This document shows positions 33,166 through 39,856 of a stretch of DNA of 64,000 nucleotides, piece by piece. The stretch comes from an uncultured Lachnospiraceae bacterium (GTDB lineage Bacteria; Bacillota; Clostridia; Lachnospirales; Lachnospiraceae). How positions within the stretch are numbered: the stretch's first letter is position 1; the number at the start of each line of letters is the position of its first letter. The stretch lies in the NCBI GenBank assembly GCA_947175055.1, contig CAMWLJ010000002.1, forward strand, positions 1-64,000, written 5' to 3'. A program made the translations under genes and the position numbers. The notes under the pieces were generated by a model. The model had not been told where the DNA came from and searched no databases. It worked only from the letters and a program-made list of their open reading frames with translations.

Positions 33166-35574
33166 CTACAGCCACTCATCCCAAAATCGTTCTACCTTAT
33201 GACCTATTTGGTCAACTGCAACGATCTCATAGCTGCTCCATTCCCTTGGAAACAGCCTCCGGTAGGCAGGCGCCAGGAAGCGCTCATCCAACAACAATAC
33301 GATCCCGAAGTCCTCCACAGTCCGAATCACTCTTCCCGCCGCCTGCAATACCTTATTCATGCCCGGATATCGATAAGCATAGTCGAATCCGTTTTCTCCC
33401 CAACCGTCAAAATACTGCTTTAAGATTTCCCGCTCATTACAGACCTGCGGCAGACCCGTTCCGATAATGACCGCACCGATCAAGCTGTCATTCTTCAGGT
33501 CGATCCCCTCGCTGAAAATACCGCCCAACACACAAAACCCCACAAGGCTCTTTTCCTCCTCCACCTCGATCTCCATGTCGATCAGTGCGTTTAAGTCACA
33601 ATCCTCATTACCCATGAAGCGATTCAGAAAATCTTCTCTGGCCTGCTCATTCATATAATCTTCCTGGACAATGCACTCAACCTTCTCATCTGCATTAAAA
33701 TATTGCATGAAGATATCATAGATCTGCCGTAAAAAAGCGTGCGAAGGAAAGAACAGCATGTAGTTTCCATGTCTCTTATCGATCACCGCATTAATATAAG
33801 AAGCAATACGGTAAAATTCCTCATCGCCCCGGCGGGTATATTTACTTGTCACGTCCCTTCCTATGTAAAGACCCAGCTTCTCCGGCCGGAAAACAGATCT
33901 GGCATAGACCTCATAGTCCCCTTCTTCTGCCCCCAGCAGCCTTTTATAGTATTGGATCGGCAGAAGCGTCGCCGAAAAGAGGATCGTACTCCTGCCCCGC
34001 ATCATGCACTCCCGCAGATTCTTAGCCGGATTCACACAGAACAGCTTCAAAATGAAACTACCGTCCGATTCCAGTTCCGTGTAGGTCACATAATTCTCAT
34101 CCAAAAGTTCGTACATCTCCAGAAAGTGTGATATCTCAAAGTAAAATTCCAACACTTCCTTCCGCACCGGGCTGTCCTCATGGTCTTCCAGGAAGTCTTC
34201 GATCGCTGCGCCAAGCCTGGTGAGCGCCCGCACAAAAGGATCTATAAATTCTTCGATGCGATAGTTTTCGCATTCTCGCTTTAAGATCAAAAGCTCCTTG
34301 TTACATTTATCCAGGGTTCCGGCGATTCGCTCGTCGTAGGCCTTGACCGTCCTTTTCAATGCCAGAAAGTCTTCCTTGCACAGCGTCGCACTGTACATGC
34401 TCCGCCCCCGCTCCACCAGATTATGGGCCTCGTCGATGAGGAAGATATACTCTCCCCGCACCCCCTCCGCAAAAAATCTGCGCAGATATACATGCGGATC
34501 GAACACATAGTTATAATCACAGATCACCGTATCGGAAAACAGGCTCATATCCAGACACATCTCAAAAGGGCATACCCTGTGTTTCTTCGCGTAAGTCTCT
34601 ATGTTCTCTCTGCTGTAGACATCCTCGTGGGTGAGAAGGTCATACATCGCCTCGTTGATCCTGTCATAATGGCCCTTCGCATATGGACAATACTCCGGAT
34701 TACATTCCGTCTCCTCCATAAAGCAGATCTTGTCCTTCGCCGTCAGGACCACACTCTTACAGCGCAGCCCGTGTTCCCGCAGCAGGGCGAAGGTATTATC
34801 CGCCACCGTTCTGGTAATGGTCTTGGCTGTCAGATAGAAGATCTTCTCGCACATTCCCTCACCCATCGCCTTCACCGCCGGAAACACTGTGGAGATCGTC
34901 TTGCCGACACCGGTAGGCGCCTCGATGAAAAGCTTGCGCTTATGGTAGATCGTCTGATAGACATAAGTTGCCAACTCCTTCTGTCCTTCCCTGTAAGCAT
35001 AGGGAAACTGCAGCGCCTTGATAGATGCCTGCCTGACCTTCTGCCACTGGAAGCTGTAGTCCGCCCACTTCCGATACTGCGCCATCACCCCCGAAAACCA
35101 TTCCTGCAGTTCGGCAAACGTATAGTCATAGTGAAAATACTTTATTTCTTCCGTCTCCATATGACAGTACGTCATCCGTACCCGGATCTCCGGCAGCTTC
35201 TTCTGCCCGGCATATATGTAAGCATAGCAGCGAGCCTGCGCCAAATGCACCGGTATCGGTCCTTTCAGCTTCTTCAGGTCCTGGAAAGTGCCCTTGATCT
35301 CATCTATAGTCACAGTCAGCCTCTGCGGCTGCTGTACCTCCGTGATGATCCCGTCCGCACGTCCTTCCACAACGATCTCATACTCTCCTGCATCATATAG
35401 ATAACGCAGCCCGACTTCCGCTTGATATTCCGGCCCCATCCGTCTCTGGATCATGCGGTGGATACGGCTTCCTTCCTGCATCGCATTTTCCGGGGACGCC
35501 GCTCTTCGATTATCAATATTGCCGGAACGCAGTATAAACTCCACCAGGCTCCTGACCGAAATCCGTATTTCCAA
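33166..35574 (-). CDS. XPD/DinG-like DNA helicase with N-terminal PD-(D/E)XK nuclease domain
   Basis: An 802-residue protein. Residues about 1-160 look like a Cas4/RecB-type nuclease: D74 in EGRADGII, E92 and K94 in DEIKG, and Q113 in LAQARCYAY. The superfamily 2 helicase follows, with Walker A APTGVGKT (219-226), DEAH at 381-384 and motif VI QAAGRVIRT near the end. Between motifs Ia and II lie C284, C291, C296, C335 and C340, the set expected for the 4Fe-4S cluster of XPD-type helicases. Together the domains suggest unwinding and trimming of damaged or branched DNA. The start is ATG 35574 with no strong ribosome binding site in view. Not a canonical DinG, which lacks this nuclease arrangement. 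Confidence 0.88.
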   Translation of the reverse strand: MEIRISVRSLVEFILRSGNIDNRRAASPENAMQEGSRIHRMIQRRMGPEYQAEVGLRYLYDAGEYEIVVEGRADGIITEVQQPQRLTVTIDEIKGTFQDLKKLKGPIPVHLAQARCYAYIYAGQKKLPEIRVRMTYCHMETEEIKYFHYDYTFAELQEWFSGVMAQYRKWADYSFQWQKVRQASIKALQFPYAYREGQKELATYVYQTIYHKRKLFIEAPTGVGKTISTVFPAVKAMGEGMCEKIFYLTAKTITRTVADNTFALLREHGLRCKSVVLTAKDKICFMEETECNPEYCPYAKGHYDRINEAMYDLLTHEDVYSRENIETYAKKHRVCPFEMCLDMSLFSDTVICDYNYVFDPHVYLRRFFAEGVRGEYIFLIDEAHNLVERGRSMYSATLCKEDFLALKRTVKAYDERIAGTLDKCNKELLILKRECENYRIEEFIDPFVRALTRLGAAIEDFLEDHEDSPVRKEVLEFYFEISHFLEMYELLDENYVTYTELESDGSFILKLFCVNPAKNLRECMMRGRSTILFSATLLPIQYYKRLLGAEEGDYEVYARSVFRPEKLGLYIGRDVTSKYTRRGDEEFYRIASYINAVIDKRHGNYMLFFPSHAFLRQIYDIFMQYFNADEKVECIVQEDYMNEQAREDFLNRFMGNEDCDLNALIDMEIEVEEEKSLVGFCVLGGIFSEGIDLKNDSLIGAVIIGTGLPQVCNEREILKQYFDGWGENGFDYAYRYPGMNKVLQAAGRVIRTVEDFGIVLLLDERFLAPAYRRLFPREWSSYEIVAVDQIGHKVERFWDEWL

Positions 35575-35726: not shown

Positions 35727-35951
35727 TCAACATGCTACTGCATATTTCTTCAGATATTTCTCGAAATCTTCATCATATCCGTTAACGGATACTGTCAAAA
35801 CCTGATTAAAATTGAGCCCTAACACGCCGAGAATTGACTTTGCATCTACGATAAATCTGTTGTAGGAAATATCTACATCAAAAACGCATTTTGTAGCCGC
35901 AGAAACAAAGTCCTTCACTTCTTCCGGTCTTAATTTAATTCTGTGTTGCAT
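35727..35951 (-). CDS. HPr-like protein without the phosphorylated histidine
   Basis: A 74-residue protein of HPr fold: IVDAKSILGVLGLN is the hallmark segment, and S39 in AKSI matches regulatory Ser46 of HPr. The active-site loop, normally GLHARPA with His15, reads IKLRPEEV (5-12); no histidine is present there. It therefore cannot carry PTS phosphate, but could still be a target of HPr kinase or act as a regulator like Crh, which also lacks His15 but has Gln there. AAGGAGG precedes ATG 35951; upstream in-frame codons have no site. It has its own strong promoter, leader palindrome and terminator. Confidence 0.82.
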   Translation of the reverse strand: MQHRIKLRPEEVKDFVSAATKCVFDVDISYNRFIVDAKSILGVLGLNFNQVLTVSVNGYDEDFEKYLKKYAVAC

Positions 35952-36021
35952 AGCAATCCTCCTTTCCAGCTCAGCCCGCAGATTAAGCGCAGGCACTGAT
36001 CTACCTTCACTTTACTTTCCA

Positions 36022-36283: not shown

Positions 36284-37075
36284 TCAGAAACCTTCACGAT
36301 TCATAAATTCCGTCATATACTCCTGGAAGCGCAACGGCAGCATCTGTTGCTGAAGGCGTTTGTTGCGCCGCTCTCTGATCGCTATCGTCTTGTGGAAAAG
36401 AGTAAACAGTTCCTGATACTGCTGCTCTTTGTCAGAATATTGCAAGGCCACCTGCTGTTCTTCTTCATTCCGCTCCACACCGGATACAAGATACCATTCC
36501 CTGCGTGCCGGGTGCACTCCAAATAACCCCCTGTTCTCATCATGGATCATGAAATCCTCCGGGGCAAGACGGTCGGCAAAATGCGGCATCACGAAAGGCA
36601 TCACATTATTCTCCGGACCGATCCTGGCATATAAAACACCCTGCTTCAACTCCTGAAATCTGATAAATTCCAATTCATGATGCACTTCATTAGCGGTACG
36701 CCTGGCAAGCGCAAAAGTCCTTGCTACATAAGGATTGCGCAGATTCTCCATGGTACTGCTGCCGTGGCCACATGTTATGCCGTCCACCACGGTATGATAG
36801 ACCGCATCTCCTTTGTCCGTCCCGTCGGAAGCCGCCGCACGACAGATGGCACCGTAAACATGTTCTCCCAGCCGTTCCTGCAATGTACGGACCACCTTCT
36901 CAGTCTTGCCAAAATCCGGCTGACTATGCAGGTACGTGGCAAACAATCTATAATTGTCCGCCTCTCCCACCTGCACATGCAGATGTTCATGCCCTTCCCG
37001 CAGGGCATATGCATCATAGATTGCCGTAAAGATTCCCTCCAAGGAGTCCTCACAGATAATATATTTCTCTTCCAT
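36284..37075 (-). CDS. DUF4130 family putative DNA metabolism protein
   Basis: A 263-residue protein of the DUF4130/TIGR03915 family, which is encoded next to a radical SAM protein of the TIGR03916 family and in some genomes is fused to a uracil-DNA glycosylase domain. The conserved region includes VMPFVMPHFADRLAPEDFMIHD and the FGVHP segment; the function is not established. It starts 52 bases after the radical SAM gene and has only a weak ribosome binding site (GTGGAA), which suggests dependence on upstream translation. It should share the SOS-type promoter of that gene. Confidence 0.85.
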   Translation of the reverse strand: MEEKYIICEDSLEGIFTAIYDAYALREGHEHLHVQVGEADNYRLFATYLHSQPDFGKTEKVVRTLQERLGEHVYGAICRAAASDGTDKGDAVYHTVVDGITCGHGSSTMENLRNPYVARTFALARRTANEVHHELEFIRFQELKQGVLYARIGPENNVMPFVMPHFADRLAPEDFMIHDENRGLFGVHPARREWYLVSGVERNEEEQQVALQYSDKEQQYQELFTLFHKTIAIRERRNKRLQQQMLPLRFQEYMTEFMNREGF

Positions 37076-37126: not shown

Positions 37127-38542
37127 TCAGGCCGTATGCAATGCACTGTCTGCCTTACCGTTACCAGCCGCCTTACTATTACCGATCGTCTTACTGTTAT
37201 GCACATCGACAAAGTTCCTGGTCTCATCCAGCATCTGTCCCGCATCGAACAACGACATCTGCCGATAGGGCGTCCCATCCATTAAGAAGGGCAGCCGCTC
37301 CCCTTTGCCCATCTGGTTCTGATACGTCAGGTTCTGTACGATATATGTCTCATCCAGCTTCGTAGGATACATCATCCTGCCGCTGCACGTGATAAAGTAT
37401 AGCGCCCGTTTTAACACCACACCCATCTTCTTCAGGTCCTCAAAGGTCAGATTCCCGAAGCGTCTGGCGGTAACGATCCGCTTAGCGCTCTTAACGCCGA
37501 TTCCCGGGACACGCAGCAGCAGACGGTATTCCGCACGGTTGATCTCCACCGGAAATACCTCCAGATGCCGCACCGCCCAGTCTGCTTTCGGATCGATCGC
37601 CATATTGAAGTTCGGTCTCTCCTTTGTCAGCAGTTCATCCACCTTAAACCCATAAAACCGCAGCAGCCAGTCTGCCTGATAAAGCCTGTGCTCCCGCAAA
37701 AGCGGCGGTCCTGCCGTGATCGACGGCAGCTGCTTATCCTCATTCACATTCACGAAGGCAGAGTAATATACCCTCTTCAGGGAGAACTTCTCATACAAAC
37801 TCTCTGCCACCGACATAACCTGGTAGTCACTCTCCGGCAGCGCTCCCACGACCATCTGCGTAGACTGGCCGGCCTCGCAGAAATGAGGCGCATGTTTATA
37901 TAGCATAAGTTCGTTCTTATTCTCAGTGATACCGTTCTGAATCTGACGCATCGGTTTCAAGATTGTCTTACGATGCTTGTTGGGCGCCATCTCATGAAGC
38001 CCTTCTGCAGTCGCCATCTCCAGATTCACACTCATGCGGTCTGCCAGATAACCGGCTCTCTGTATCAACAGAGGATCCGCTCCCGGTATGGCTTTCACAT
38101 GAACGTATCCCTGAAACCTATGCACTGTCCGTAGCTTATGAACCGTCTCACAGATCAGTTCCATCGTATAATTAGGACTGTACAATATCCCTGAACTCAA
38201 AAACAGACCTTCTATATAATTACGTCTGTAAAATTCCATCGTCAATTCACACACTTCATCCGGTGTAAAGGAAGCCCGCGGCACGTCATTGGATCTCCTG
38301 TTGATACAATACCGACAATCATAGATGCATTCGTTGGTAAACAGTATCTTTAATAAGGAAATACATCTGCCATCCGCACCAAAGCTGTGGCAAAGGCCTG
38401 CCGCCACGGTATTGCCTAATCCGGTACCGTCATTCTTCCGTGAAGAGCCGCTGGAGCTGCAGGATACATCATACTTTGCCGCATCTGCCAATATCTTCAA
38501 TTTATCCATCAGCGACATCTGCGGCGATAACTTAACTTCCAT
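37127..38542 (-). CDS. Radical SAM protein, putative DNA modification or repair (TIGR03916 type)
   Basis: A 471-residue radical SAM enzyme. The cluster-binding motif is C72-x3-C76-x2-C79 (NECIYDCRYC). After the radical SAM barrel, a helix-hairpin-helix DNA-binding motif (RVPGIGVKSAKRIV, near 345) is seen, as in DNA repair enzymes. Family members are described as putative DNA modification/repair proteins linked to uracil-DNA glycosylase domains; the reaction is unknown. I start at ATG 38542, preceded by AAGGTGG; a GTG at 38554 with AAGGAG is an alternative. The C-terminus (about 455-471) is low in complexity. The promoter is bracketed by two LexA-type boxes. Confidence 0.88.
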   Translation of the reverse strand: MEVKLSPQMSLMDKLKILADAAKYDVSCSSSGSSRKNDGTGLGNTVAAGLCHSFGADGRCISLLKILFTNECIYDCRYCINRRSNDVPRASFTPDEVCELTMEFYRRNYIEGLFLSSGILYSPNYTMELICETVHKLRTVHRFQGYVHVKAIPGADPLLIQRAGYLADRMSVNLEMATAEGLHEMAPNKHRKTILKPMRQIQNGITENKNELMLYKHAPHFCEAGQSTQMVVGALPESDYQVMSVAESLYEKFSLKRVYYSAFVNVNEDKQLPSITAGPPLLREHRLYQADWLLRFYGFKVDELLTKERPNFNMAIDPKADWAVRHLEVFPVEINRAEYRLLLRVPGIGVKSAKRIVTARRFGNLTFEDLKKMGVVLKRALYFITCSGRMMYPTKLDETYIVQNLTYQNQMGKGERLPFLMDGTPYRQMSLFDAGQMLDETRNFVDVHNSKTIGNSKAAGNGKADSALHTA

Positions 38543-38667
38543 AATAGATTCCACCTTATCTCCTTACTCAAACCTCATATCAGTCCCTGCACGGATATCA
38601 GTGCAACGTGAGGTATCAGTAGTCTCATTATTCCATTGTCAGATCAATCCCCATAAATGACCCGATA

Positions 38668-38681
38668 AGAACATGTGTTCT
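38668..38681. promoter_or_regulatory. LexA-type SOS box, promoter-proximal
   Basis: GAAC-ATGT-GTTC at 38669-38680 matches the Gram-positive LexA (DinR) consensus GAAC-RNRY-GTTY at every position. It lies about 14-27 bases downstream of the -10 of the radical SAM promoter, where a bound repressor would block elongation or initiation. Confidence 0.7.
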
Positions 38682-38694
38682 TTCCTGTAAACCT

Positions 38695-38723
38695 ATCCTA
38701 ACATAGAAAGCAGTATATTGCAA
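38695..38723 (-). promoter_or_regulatory. Promoter of the radical SAM/DUF4130 pair
   Basis: On the minus strand, TTGCAA (38723-38718) and TAGGAT (38700-38695) are spaced by 17 bases. LexA-type boxes flank it on both sides. The 38543-38845 gap holds this promoter, the two boxes and the short asnA leader. Confidence 0.55.
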
Positions 38724-38732
38724 TAGTTTTCT

Positions 38733-38746
38733 CGAACATTTGTTTG
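38733..38746. promoter_or_regulatory. LexA-type SOS box, upstream of the -35
   Basis: CGAAC-ATTT-GTTTG matches the Gram-positive consensus CGAAC-RNRY-GTTYG with one mismatch in the spacer. It lies ten bases upstream of the radical SAM -35 element and is also about 100 bases upstream of asnA. Confidence 0.6.
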
Positions 38747-38845: not shown

Positions 38846-39856
38846 ATGGATAACTTAATGATCCCTAAAGATTACAGATCGGCGCTGAATCTGCATGATA
38901 CCCAGATTGGCATCAAGACTGTAAAGGACTTTTTCCAGGTGCTGTTGGCAGAAGAACTGCACCTGTTGCGTGTGTCTGCTCCGCTGTTCGTCGATCCGGC
39001 CTCCGGTCTCAACGATAACTTGAACGGCGTAGAGCGTCCGGTCTCTTTCGGTATCAAGGAACAAGGTGACGCACAGGCAGAGATCGTACACTCCCTGGCC
39101 AAATGGAAGCGTATGGCTCTGCAGAAATACGGTTTTTCTCACGGGGAAGGGCTCTACACCGATATGAGTGCTATCCGCCGGGATGAAACAACTGACAATA
39201 TCCACTCTATTTACGTAGACCAATGGGACTGGGAGAAGATCATCTCCCGTGAAGAGCGCACGATCGACTACCTACAGCAGACAGTCAGATCCGTATACAA
39301 AGTACTGCGCAAGACCGAGAAGTACATGGCGATCCGTTACGACTATATCAGCGAGATCCTGCCCCATGATATCTTCTTCATCACCACCCAGGAACTGGAA
39401 AACATGTTCCCCGACTATACGCCGAAAGAACGTGAATATTACATAACGAAGGCTAAAGGCGCCGTATGCCTTATGCAGATCGGGGATCTGTTGGAATCCG
39501 GTGAGAAGCATGACGGCCGTGCCCCGGACTATGATGACTGGGCCTTAAACGCCGATATTCTTGTCTATTATCCGGTACTCGATATCGCACTGGAACTGTC
39601 CTCCATGGGAATCCGCGTGGATAAGGAGGCCCTGCTTGGCCAGCTCGACAAAGCCGGGTGTCCGGAACGCGCCCAGCTGCCTTTTCAGAAAGCGATCTTG
39701 GACGAAGAACTGCCATATACCATCGGCGGCGGTATCGGACAGTCCCGTATCTGTATGTTCTTCCTGCGCAAGGCGCATATCGGAGAAGTACAGTCCTCCC
39801 TGTGGCCGGAAGACGTCGCAAAAGAAGCCCTTTCCAAAGGAATACAGCTCCTCTAG
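38846..39856 (+). CDS. asnA: Aspartate-ammonia ligase (asparagine synthetase A)
   Basis: A 336-residue AsnA, related to class II aminoacyl-tRNA synthetases. It forms asparagine from aspartate, ammonia and ATP. Family segments visible are FQVLLAEELHLLRVSAPLFV, GVERPVSFGIKE, AEIVHSLAKWKR near the first third, and GGGIGQSRICMFFL close to the C-terminus. Length is normal for the family. I start at ATG 38846, with GTGAGG six bases upstream; 12 in-frame codons lie before it. It is monocistronic and convergent with an AraC gene. Confidence 0.95.
   Translation: MDNLMIPKDYRSALNLHDTQIGIKTVKDFFQVLLAEELHLLRVSAPLFVDPASGLNDNLNGVERPVSFGIKEQGDAQAEIVHSLAKWKRMALQKYGFSHGEGLYTDMSAIRRDETTDNIHSIYVDQWDWEKIISREERTIDYLQQTVRSVYKVLRKTEKYMAIRYDYISEILPHDIFFITTQELENMFPDYTPKEREYYITKAKGAVCLMQIGDLLESGEKHDGRAPDYDDWALNADILVYYPVLDIALELSSMGIRVDKEALLGQLDKAGCPERAQLPFQKAILDEELPYTIGGGIGQSRICMFFLRKAHIGEVQSSLWPEDVAKEALSKGIQLL

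Follow-up and report, generated by a model that had tools for sequence, protein, structure and literature searches.

The operon encoding a TIGR03916 radical SAM protein and a TIGR03915/DUF4130 protein in an uncultured Lachnospiraceae bacterium is preceded by two LexA-type boxes, which flank a promoter-like element in the 64-kb stretch of DNA analysed here (the window). From its sequence context, we predicted, with a probability of roughly 90%, that this operon is under LexA (SOS) control, both in this bacterium and in most of the Clostridia that carry lexA along with the operon. The apparent LexA control of the pair, which the earlier note had put forward from the window alone, is strongly supported by the boxes, by their footprint upstream of the orthologues and by their association with lexA.

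LexA-type boxes around the promoter of the operon

The features of the locus are listed in Table 1. Both LexA-type boxes described in the earlier note were found around the promoter, one exact and one with a single mismatch to GAAC-N4-GTTC. Two details had to be corrected. The mismatch of box 2, previously placed in the spacer, in fact affects the final position of a half-site, which reads GTTT in place of GTTC, and the downstream box, previously put at +14 to +27, lies at approximately +9 to +20 as estimated from the −10 and −35 elements. GTTT is a listed half-site in the lexA, recA and ruvC operators bound by Clostridium difficile LexA in SPR (PMC4234289). The promoter between the boxes fell below the threshold of a generic sigma-70 scan (8 of 12 matches, threshold 9), and no repeats were reported around it. 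The radical SAM gene starts at GTG 38554 in the list of open reading frames, with ATG 38542 and ATG 38518 as alternatives that are conserved in most same-genus loci.

Table 1. Features around the promoter in the window, followed by SOS-type promoters elsewhere in the same genome (contig:positions)
Feature	Position	Strand	Remarks
LexA box 1, downstream operator	38669-38680	-	exact GAAC-ATGT-GTTC, GAACATGTGTTC; just past the estimated transcription start
LexA box 2, upstream operator	38733-38746	-	CGAACATTTGTTTG on the + strand, CAAACAAATGTTCG on the - strand; 10 bp upstream of the -35
Promoter-like element between the boxes	38695-38723	-	-35 TTGCAA 38723-38718, 17-bp spacer, -10 TAGGAT 38700-38695
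TIGR03916 radical SAM protein	37127-38554	-	687 bits, cut-off 343.5; first gene of the operon
TIGR03915/DUF4130 protein	36284-37075	-	207 bits, cut-off 112.25; PF13566 150 bits; second gene of the operon; 51-bp intergenic gap
asnA	38846-39856	divergent	upstream of the radical SAM gene
HPr-like gene	35727-35996		downstream of the pair
rad3/DinG-type helicase gene	33166-35574		downstream of the pair; below family cut-offs
recA promoter	C12:44841-44886		
lexA promoter	C20:40119-40164		
uvrB promoter	C37:38-49		
Probable polymerase gene promoter	C50:5617-5628		

Exact GAAC-N4-GTTC occurred twice in the 64 kb against 0.8 expected, and its one-mismatch form occurred 24 times against 20.4 expected. 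The bacterium's own genome held 34 exact sites, compared with 47 for the reversed pattern. As the bare count was enriched neither in the window nor in the genome, we dropped it as evidence and replaced it with tests of position, matrix score and conservation. The matrix was built from 61 sites in other Clostridia, each no more than 400 bp upstream of a LexA-domain gene; 27 of 30 loci had a site. With this lexA-promoter matrix, box 1 and box 2 ranked first and second in the window, with scores of 17.9 and 17.8, while the next-best site scored 11.5. No site in 100 simulated 64-kb sequences scored as high as the two boxes. The bare pattern is within chance; what makes the boxes significant is their position, as seen in matrix rank and conservation.

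The genome carries lexA (PF01726), whose promoter combines an exact box with a one-mismatch box at a distance of 32 bp. At recA there are likewise two boxes, spaced by 33 bp, and boxes of the GAAC-N4-GTTC form were found at uvrB and at a gene for a Y-family (dinB-like) polymerase; lexA was identified by PF01726, the other three by reading their translations. The lexA-promoter matrix gave the boxes of these four genes scores of 16.45 to 22.93. The assignment for the polymerase gene is less sure, since its box also lies near a divergent transporter-like open reading frame. Among the 34 exact genome sites, we inspected 16 stretches in addition to the window site, and in these 16 the only recognised SOS genes beside a site were lexA, recA, uvrB and the polymerase gene. 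The completeness of the assembly is 80.9%. These promoters provide a start for the SOS regulon of the organism.

According to the arrangement in this genus, we propose that two LexA dimers, bound approximately 10 bp upstream of the −35 and just after the transcription start, would clamp a single sigma-A-type promoter. Upon DNA damage, RecA* would cleave LexA, and the promoter would be freed, inducing the operon. The radical SAM enzyme, with its CX3CX2C site, three extra cysteines and DNA-binding helix-hairpin-helix (HhH) domain, may then work with its DUF4130 companion on a DNA lesion. The helicase could share the SOS operon, though a 287-bp gap intervenes. The ten best window sites by the lexA-promoter matrix included no box for either the downstream HPr-like gene or the helicase gene. 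In the 57 long named loci, flanks of 5 kb contained an HPr-like match in 14 and a helicase match likewise in 14, and the two sets of loci do not fully coincide.

Conservation of the boxes and their association with lexA

To describe conservation within the genus, we used 35 loci, among them that of the window and two with fragmentary or split genes (G002 and G019). A box was present within 450 bp upstream in all 35 loci and within 250 bp in 34, compared with a shuffle mean of 0.33; in the single exception (L036), both boxes are farther upstream. Exact GAAC-N4-GTTC was found within 250 bp upstream in 33 of the 35 (the window's own included), whereas the highest count for any of the 255 remaining 4-base palindromes was 6. 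Two boxes, 53 to 66 bp apart, were seen in 31 loci. In all 31, the best promoter pair between the boxes had a 17-bp spacer, in a scan that allowed spacers of 16 to 18 and favoured 17 in ties. The −35 started with TTG in 26 of these 31 loci and was mostly 9 to 10 bp past the upstream box.

Of 110 loci outside the genus (order and class), 84 carried GAAC-N4-GTTY in the 250 bp before the gene, whereas shuffled sequences gave a mean of 1.05 and a maximum of 4; these 110 still contain the second copies L114 and L163, and also L097 (G213). When all 256 half-sites were given equal freedom in these loci, GAAC reached 84 and the overlapping AAAC 82, followed by TTTT with 28. Exact GAAC-N4-GTTC was not special there (13 of 110, compared with 16 for TTTT), and one-mismatch counts were uninformative, being 88 for TTTT, 88 for GAAC and 85 for AAAC. 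The signal outside the genus is held by the GTTY form and not by exact GTTC. Only 5 of the 110 loci had two sites, so paired boxes mainly characterise this genus and its neighbours.

The earlier note had named the absence of boxes before orthologues as a result that would speak against LexA control. Among the loci with a full 450-base upstream window, 114 of 139 have GAAC-N4-GTTY, whereas three control windows taken at these loci gave 7 of 145, 1 of 144 and 3 of 138. The proposal was thus not refuted; 35 of the 145 loci in this comparison are same-genus. Further, a box was found in 56 and two boxes in 23 of 80 named loci (L215 to L294, the best 80 of at least 593), which provide no independent count because they overlap the unnamed set in at least two loci. 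In the 23 two-box loci of this named set, the spacings were 24 to 31 bp (10 loci) or 49 to 64 bp (13 loci), suggesting two promoter layouts.

We also compared the presence of the box with that of lexA in 107 outside-genus genomes with TIGR03916 over its cut-off. A box was found in 77 of the 94 genomes with lexA, compared with 4 of the 13 without detected lexA (p = 3e-4). Counted by genus, the numbers were 53 of 66 and 4 of 12, respectively (p = 0.002). This comparison omits genomes of the same genus, both second copies (L114 and L163), G213 (no lexA search) and G077 (gene in pieces). Among the 17 lexA-bearing genomes without a box, two have near-boxes (L102 and L144), and one of the four box-bearing genomes without detected lexA has an atypical spacer. 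Some of the lexA-less genomes are incomplete (74–89%), so lexA may be missed in them. The exceptions in both directions may stem from lexA genes that escaped detection, from promoters that have moved or from genuine losses.

We considered whether the boxes could serve the divergent asnA instead of, or besides, the radical SAM operon. Between the end of the upstream box and the start codon of asnA there are 100 bp, and asnA is also upstream within 5 kb in 4 of the 57 long named loci. To our knowledge, asnA has no SOS role. We judged asnA an unlikely target, with a slim chance, because the promoter-like element between the boxes is conserved and directed towards the radical SAM gene, and because a box is present in 38 of the 53 long named loci where asnA was not found. 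It is very improbable that the boxes are chance palindromes or a GAAC-N4-GTTC-like operator of another repressor: although the bare pattern is no commoner than its reversed control in the genome and some genomes without detected lexA retain a box (4 of 13), the lexA-promoter matrix separates the two boxes from the next site by a wide gap, the best unrelated palindrome outside the genus falls far below GAAC (28 against 84 of 110), and the box goes with lexA while control windows are nearly empty.

Co-occurrence, anatomy and possible function of the pair

In 243 sampled Clostridia genomes, TIGR03916 was over its cut-off in 99 and TIGR03915 in 94. All 94 genomes with TIGR03915 also have TIGR03916, and the reverse holds for 94 of the 99. 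Four of the five TIGR03916-only genomes have sub-cut-off TIGR03915 matches; the fifth, G223, has none, and its gene is near a contig end. A DUF4130 match on the same strand was present within the fetched flank in 133 of 145 loci, and likewise in 77 of the 80 named loci (best 80 of at least 593). Adjacency is usual and not absolute: in G225 and G191, the DUF4130 gene is elsewhere in the genome. The nearest named orthologue among the matches listed was from a Lachnospiraceae metagenome-assembled genome (90% identity), followed by 'Bacterium 0.1xD8-71' (88%). Additionally, we noticed a second radical SAM paralogue in G054 (L114), 40% identical and below the family cut-off, and sub-cut-off TIGR03916 matches of about 300 bits in G080, G091, G093, G102, G116 and G164.

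The radical SAM protein matched PF04055 with 31.9 bits (cut-off 29.5) and the helix-hairpin-helix family PF12836 with 28.6 bits (cut-off 27). The cysteines of its CX3CX2C cluster motif (C76, C80 and C83) were invariant in 23 sequences. Three further invariant cysteines, C28, C51 and C60 (ATG-started numbering), are located in the N-terminal part and, judged from sequence, could hold a second iron-sulfur cluster. For the model of this protein, the nearest solved folds among the 50 rows listed were HydE, lipoyl synthase, biotin synthase and ThiH.

The predicted fold of DUF4130 resembles DHH phosphoesterases, a structural resemblance only. DHH phosphoesterases bind metal through DxD and DHH motifs; neither is found among the invariant columns of 60 DUF4130 sequences (E130, R139, F140, F166, R169, D179, R236 and E256). 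Homology to DHH proteins by sequence was rejected, as hhalign against NrnA-type (6 sequences) and RecJ (7 sequences) proteins gave 0.2%. The DUF4130 profile had no match to PDB sequences at E up to 10 and no relation to the radical SAM profiles.

Considering the regulation, the HhH domain and the family names, the two proteins probably act together in the repair or tolerance of DNA lesions under anaerobic conditions. A bolder combination would be an SOS-induced new DNA-repair chemistry, in which a lipoyl-synthase/HydE-like radical SAM enzyme with a second cluster and an HhH domain is joined by a DHH-like pseudo-phosphoesterase DUF4130 protein (RecJ/Cdc45-like without the metal site) under a double LexA clamp in Lachnospiraceae. 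Taken jointly, these features make up a tentative picture with well under even odds.

We take COG4277 to be the TIGR03916 family. The pair could also be a uracil or base-excision accessory, working on a base or abasic product alongside a uracil-DNA glycosylase (UDG), which in other phyla is part of the same operon (COG1573-COG4277). A UDG-COG4277 operon lies under LexA-type motifs in Bacteroidetes, and UDG-based systems are cited for Verrucomicrobia and Alphaproteobacteria (PMC8565304). However, the DUF4130 protein has no UDG domain, none was detected in the six proteins scanned around the promoter, and the two UDG-family matches of the genome are on other contigs (C68 and C8). We consider the accessory role less likely than not.

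A spore photoproduct lyase (SPL)-like reversal of photolesions appears doubtful. SPL is not known to have extra N-terminal cysteines or a constant companion, and the present pair differs from it in both respects. Apart from TIGR03916, the radical SAM protein had a single NCBIfam match, to CofH and below the cut-off, and no SPL was among the 50 structure rows listed, an absence that is no proof. What speaks for an SPL-like role is the radical SAM DNA-repair annotation, the prediction that splB is SOS-controlled in alpha- and beta-Proteobacteria (PMC3323433), and the wording of Aravind and colleagues, who wrote of SplB-like radical SAM photolyases (PMC3765255).

Comparison with published systems

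SOS control of the pair or of its UDG-linked form is not new in kind, being in print as a prediction for Clostridium acetobutylicum and also for Bacteroidetes, which weakens the novelty that the earlier note had implied for it. Features that we did not meet in the literature consulted are the proposed clamping of a promoter by two boxes, the footprint across the class, the dependence on lexA, the strict co-occurrence (94/94 genomes), the three extra invariant cysteines and the DHH-like predicted fold for DUF4130. Among the papers listed from the open-licence literature, there was no LexA work on the pair in Lachnospiraceae, nothing specific on the SOS regulon of gut Clostridia, and no reaction for the pair, in agreement with the earlier note on the last point.

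The regulation adds a member to a known regulon relation; the reaction of the pair is the interesting part. With TIGR03916 in 99 of 243 Clostridia genomes, a companion and a lexA-linked box, a DNA-damage role becomes directly testable for a family of putative repair proteins. Additionally, the box offers an easy way to trace the SOS regulon of gut Clostridia from sequence.

Several studies touch on neighbouring subjects. A Streptomyces LexA study has a radical SAM gene among its targets (PMC9380542), whereas the work on C. difficile LexA does not use the term 'radical SAM' in its main text (PMC4234289). A further study concerns Fusobacterium nucleatum in co-culture (PMC9848294).

The closest precedent is the operon CAC3343-CAC3344 of C. 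acetobutylicum, for which LexA control was predicted in 2013 from footprinting and expression clustering (PMC3828012). It is one prediction in one species; the LexA section of that paper does not label CAC3344 as DUF4130 and is without the two-box arrangement, a lexA-loss test or protein anatomy. The Bacteroidetes operon (PMC8565304) resembles the present one in that COG4277 and a partner gene are under SOS control. Unlike here, the partner is a uracil-DNA glycosylase, and the LexA motifs are GGA-N5-TCC and CTAA-N5-TTAG. DUF4130 itself has been associated with SOS neighbourhoods, with UDGs and with SplB-like radical SAM proteins (Biol Direct 2013, 8:20, PMC3765255), in passages that give no LexA boxes for the pair and no DUF4130 fold. 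With SplB, the TIGR03916 protein shares the radical SAM assignment, a link to DNA repair and a predicted SOS control (PMC3323433 for SplB in alpha- and beta-Proteobacteria), whereas it differs in its family models, its extra cysteines, its HhH domain and its constant DUF4130 companion.
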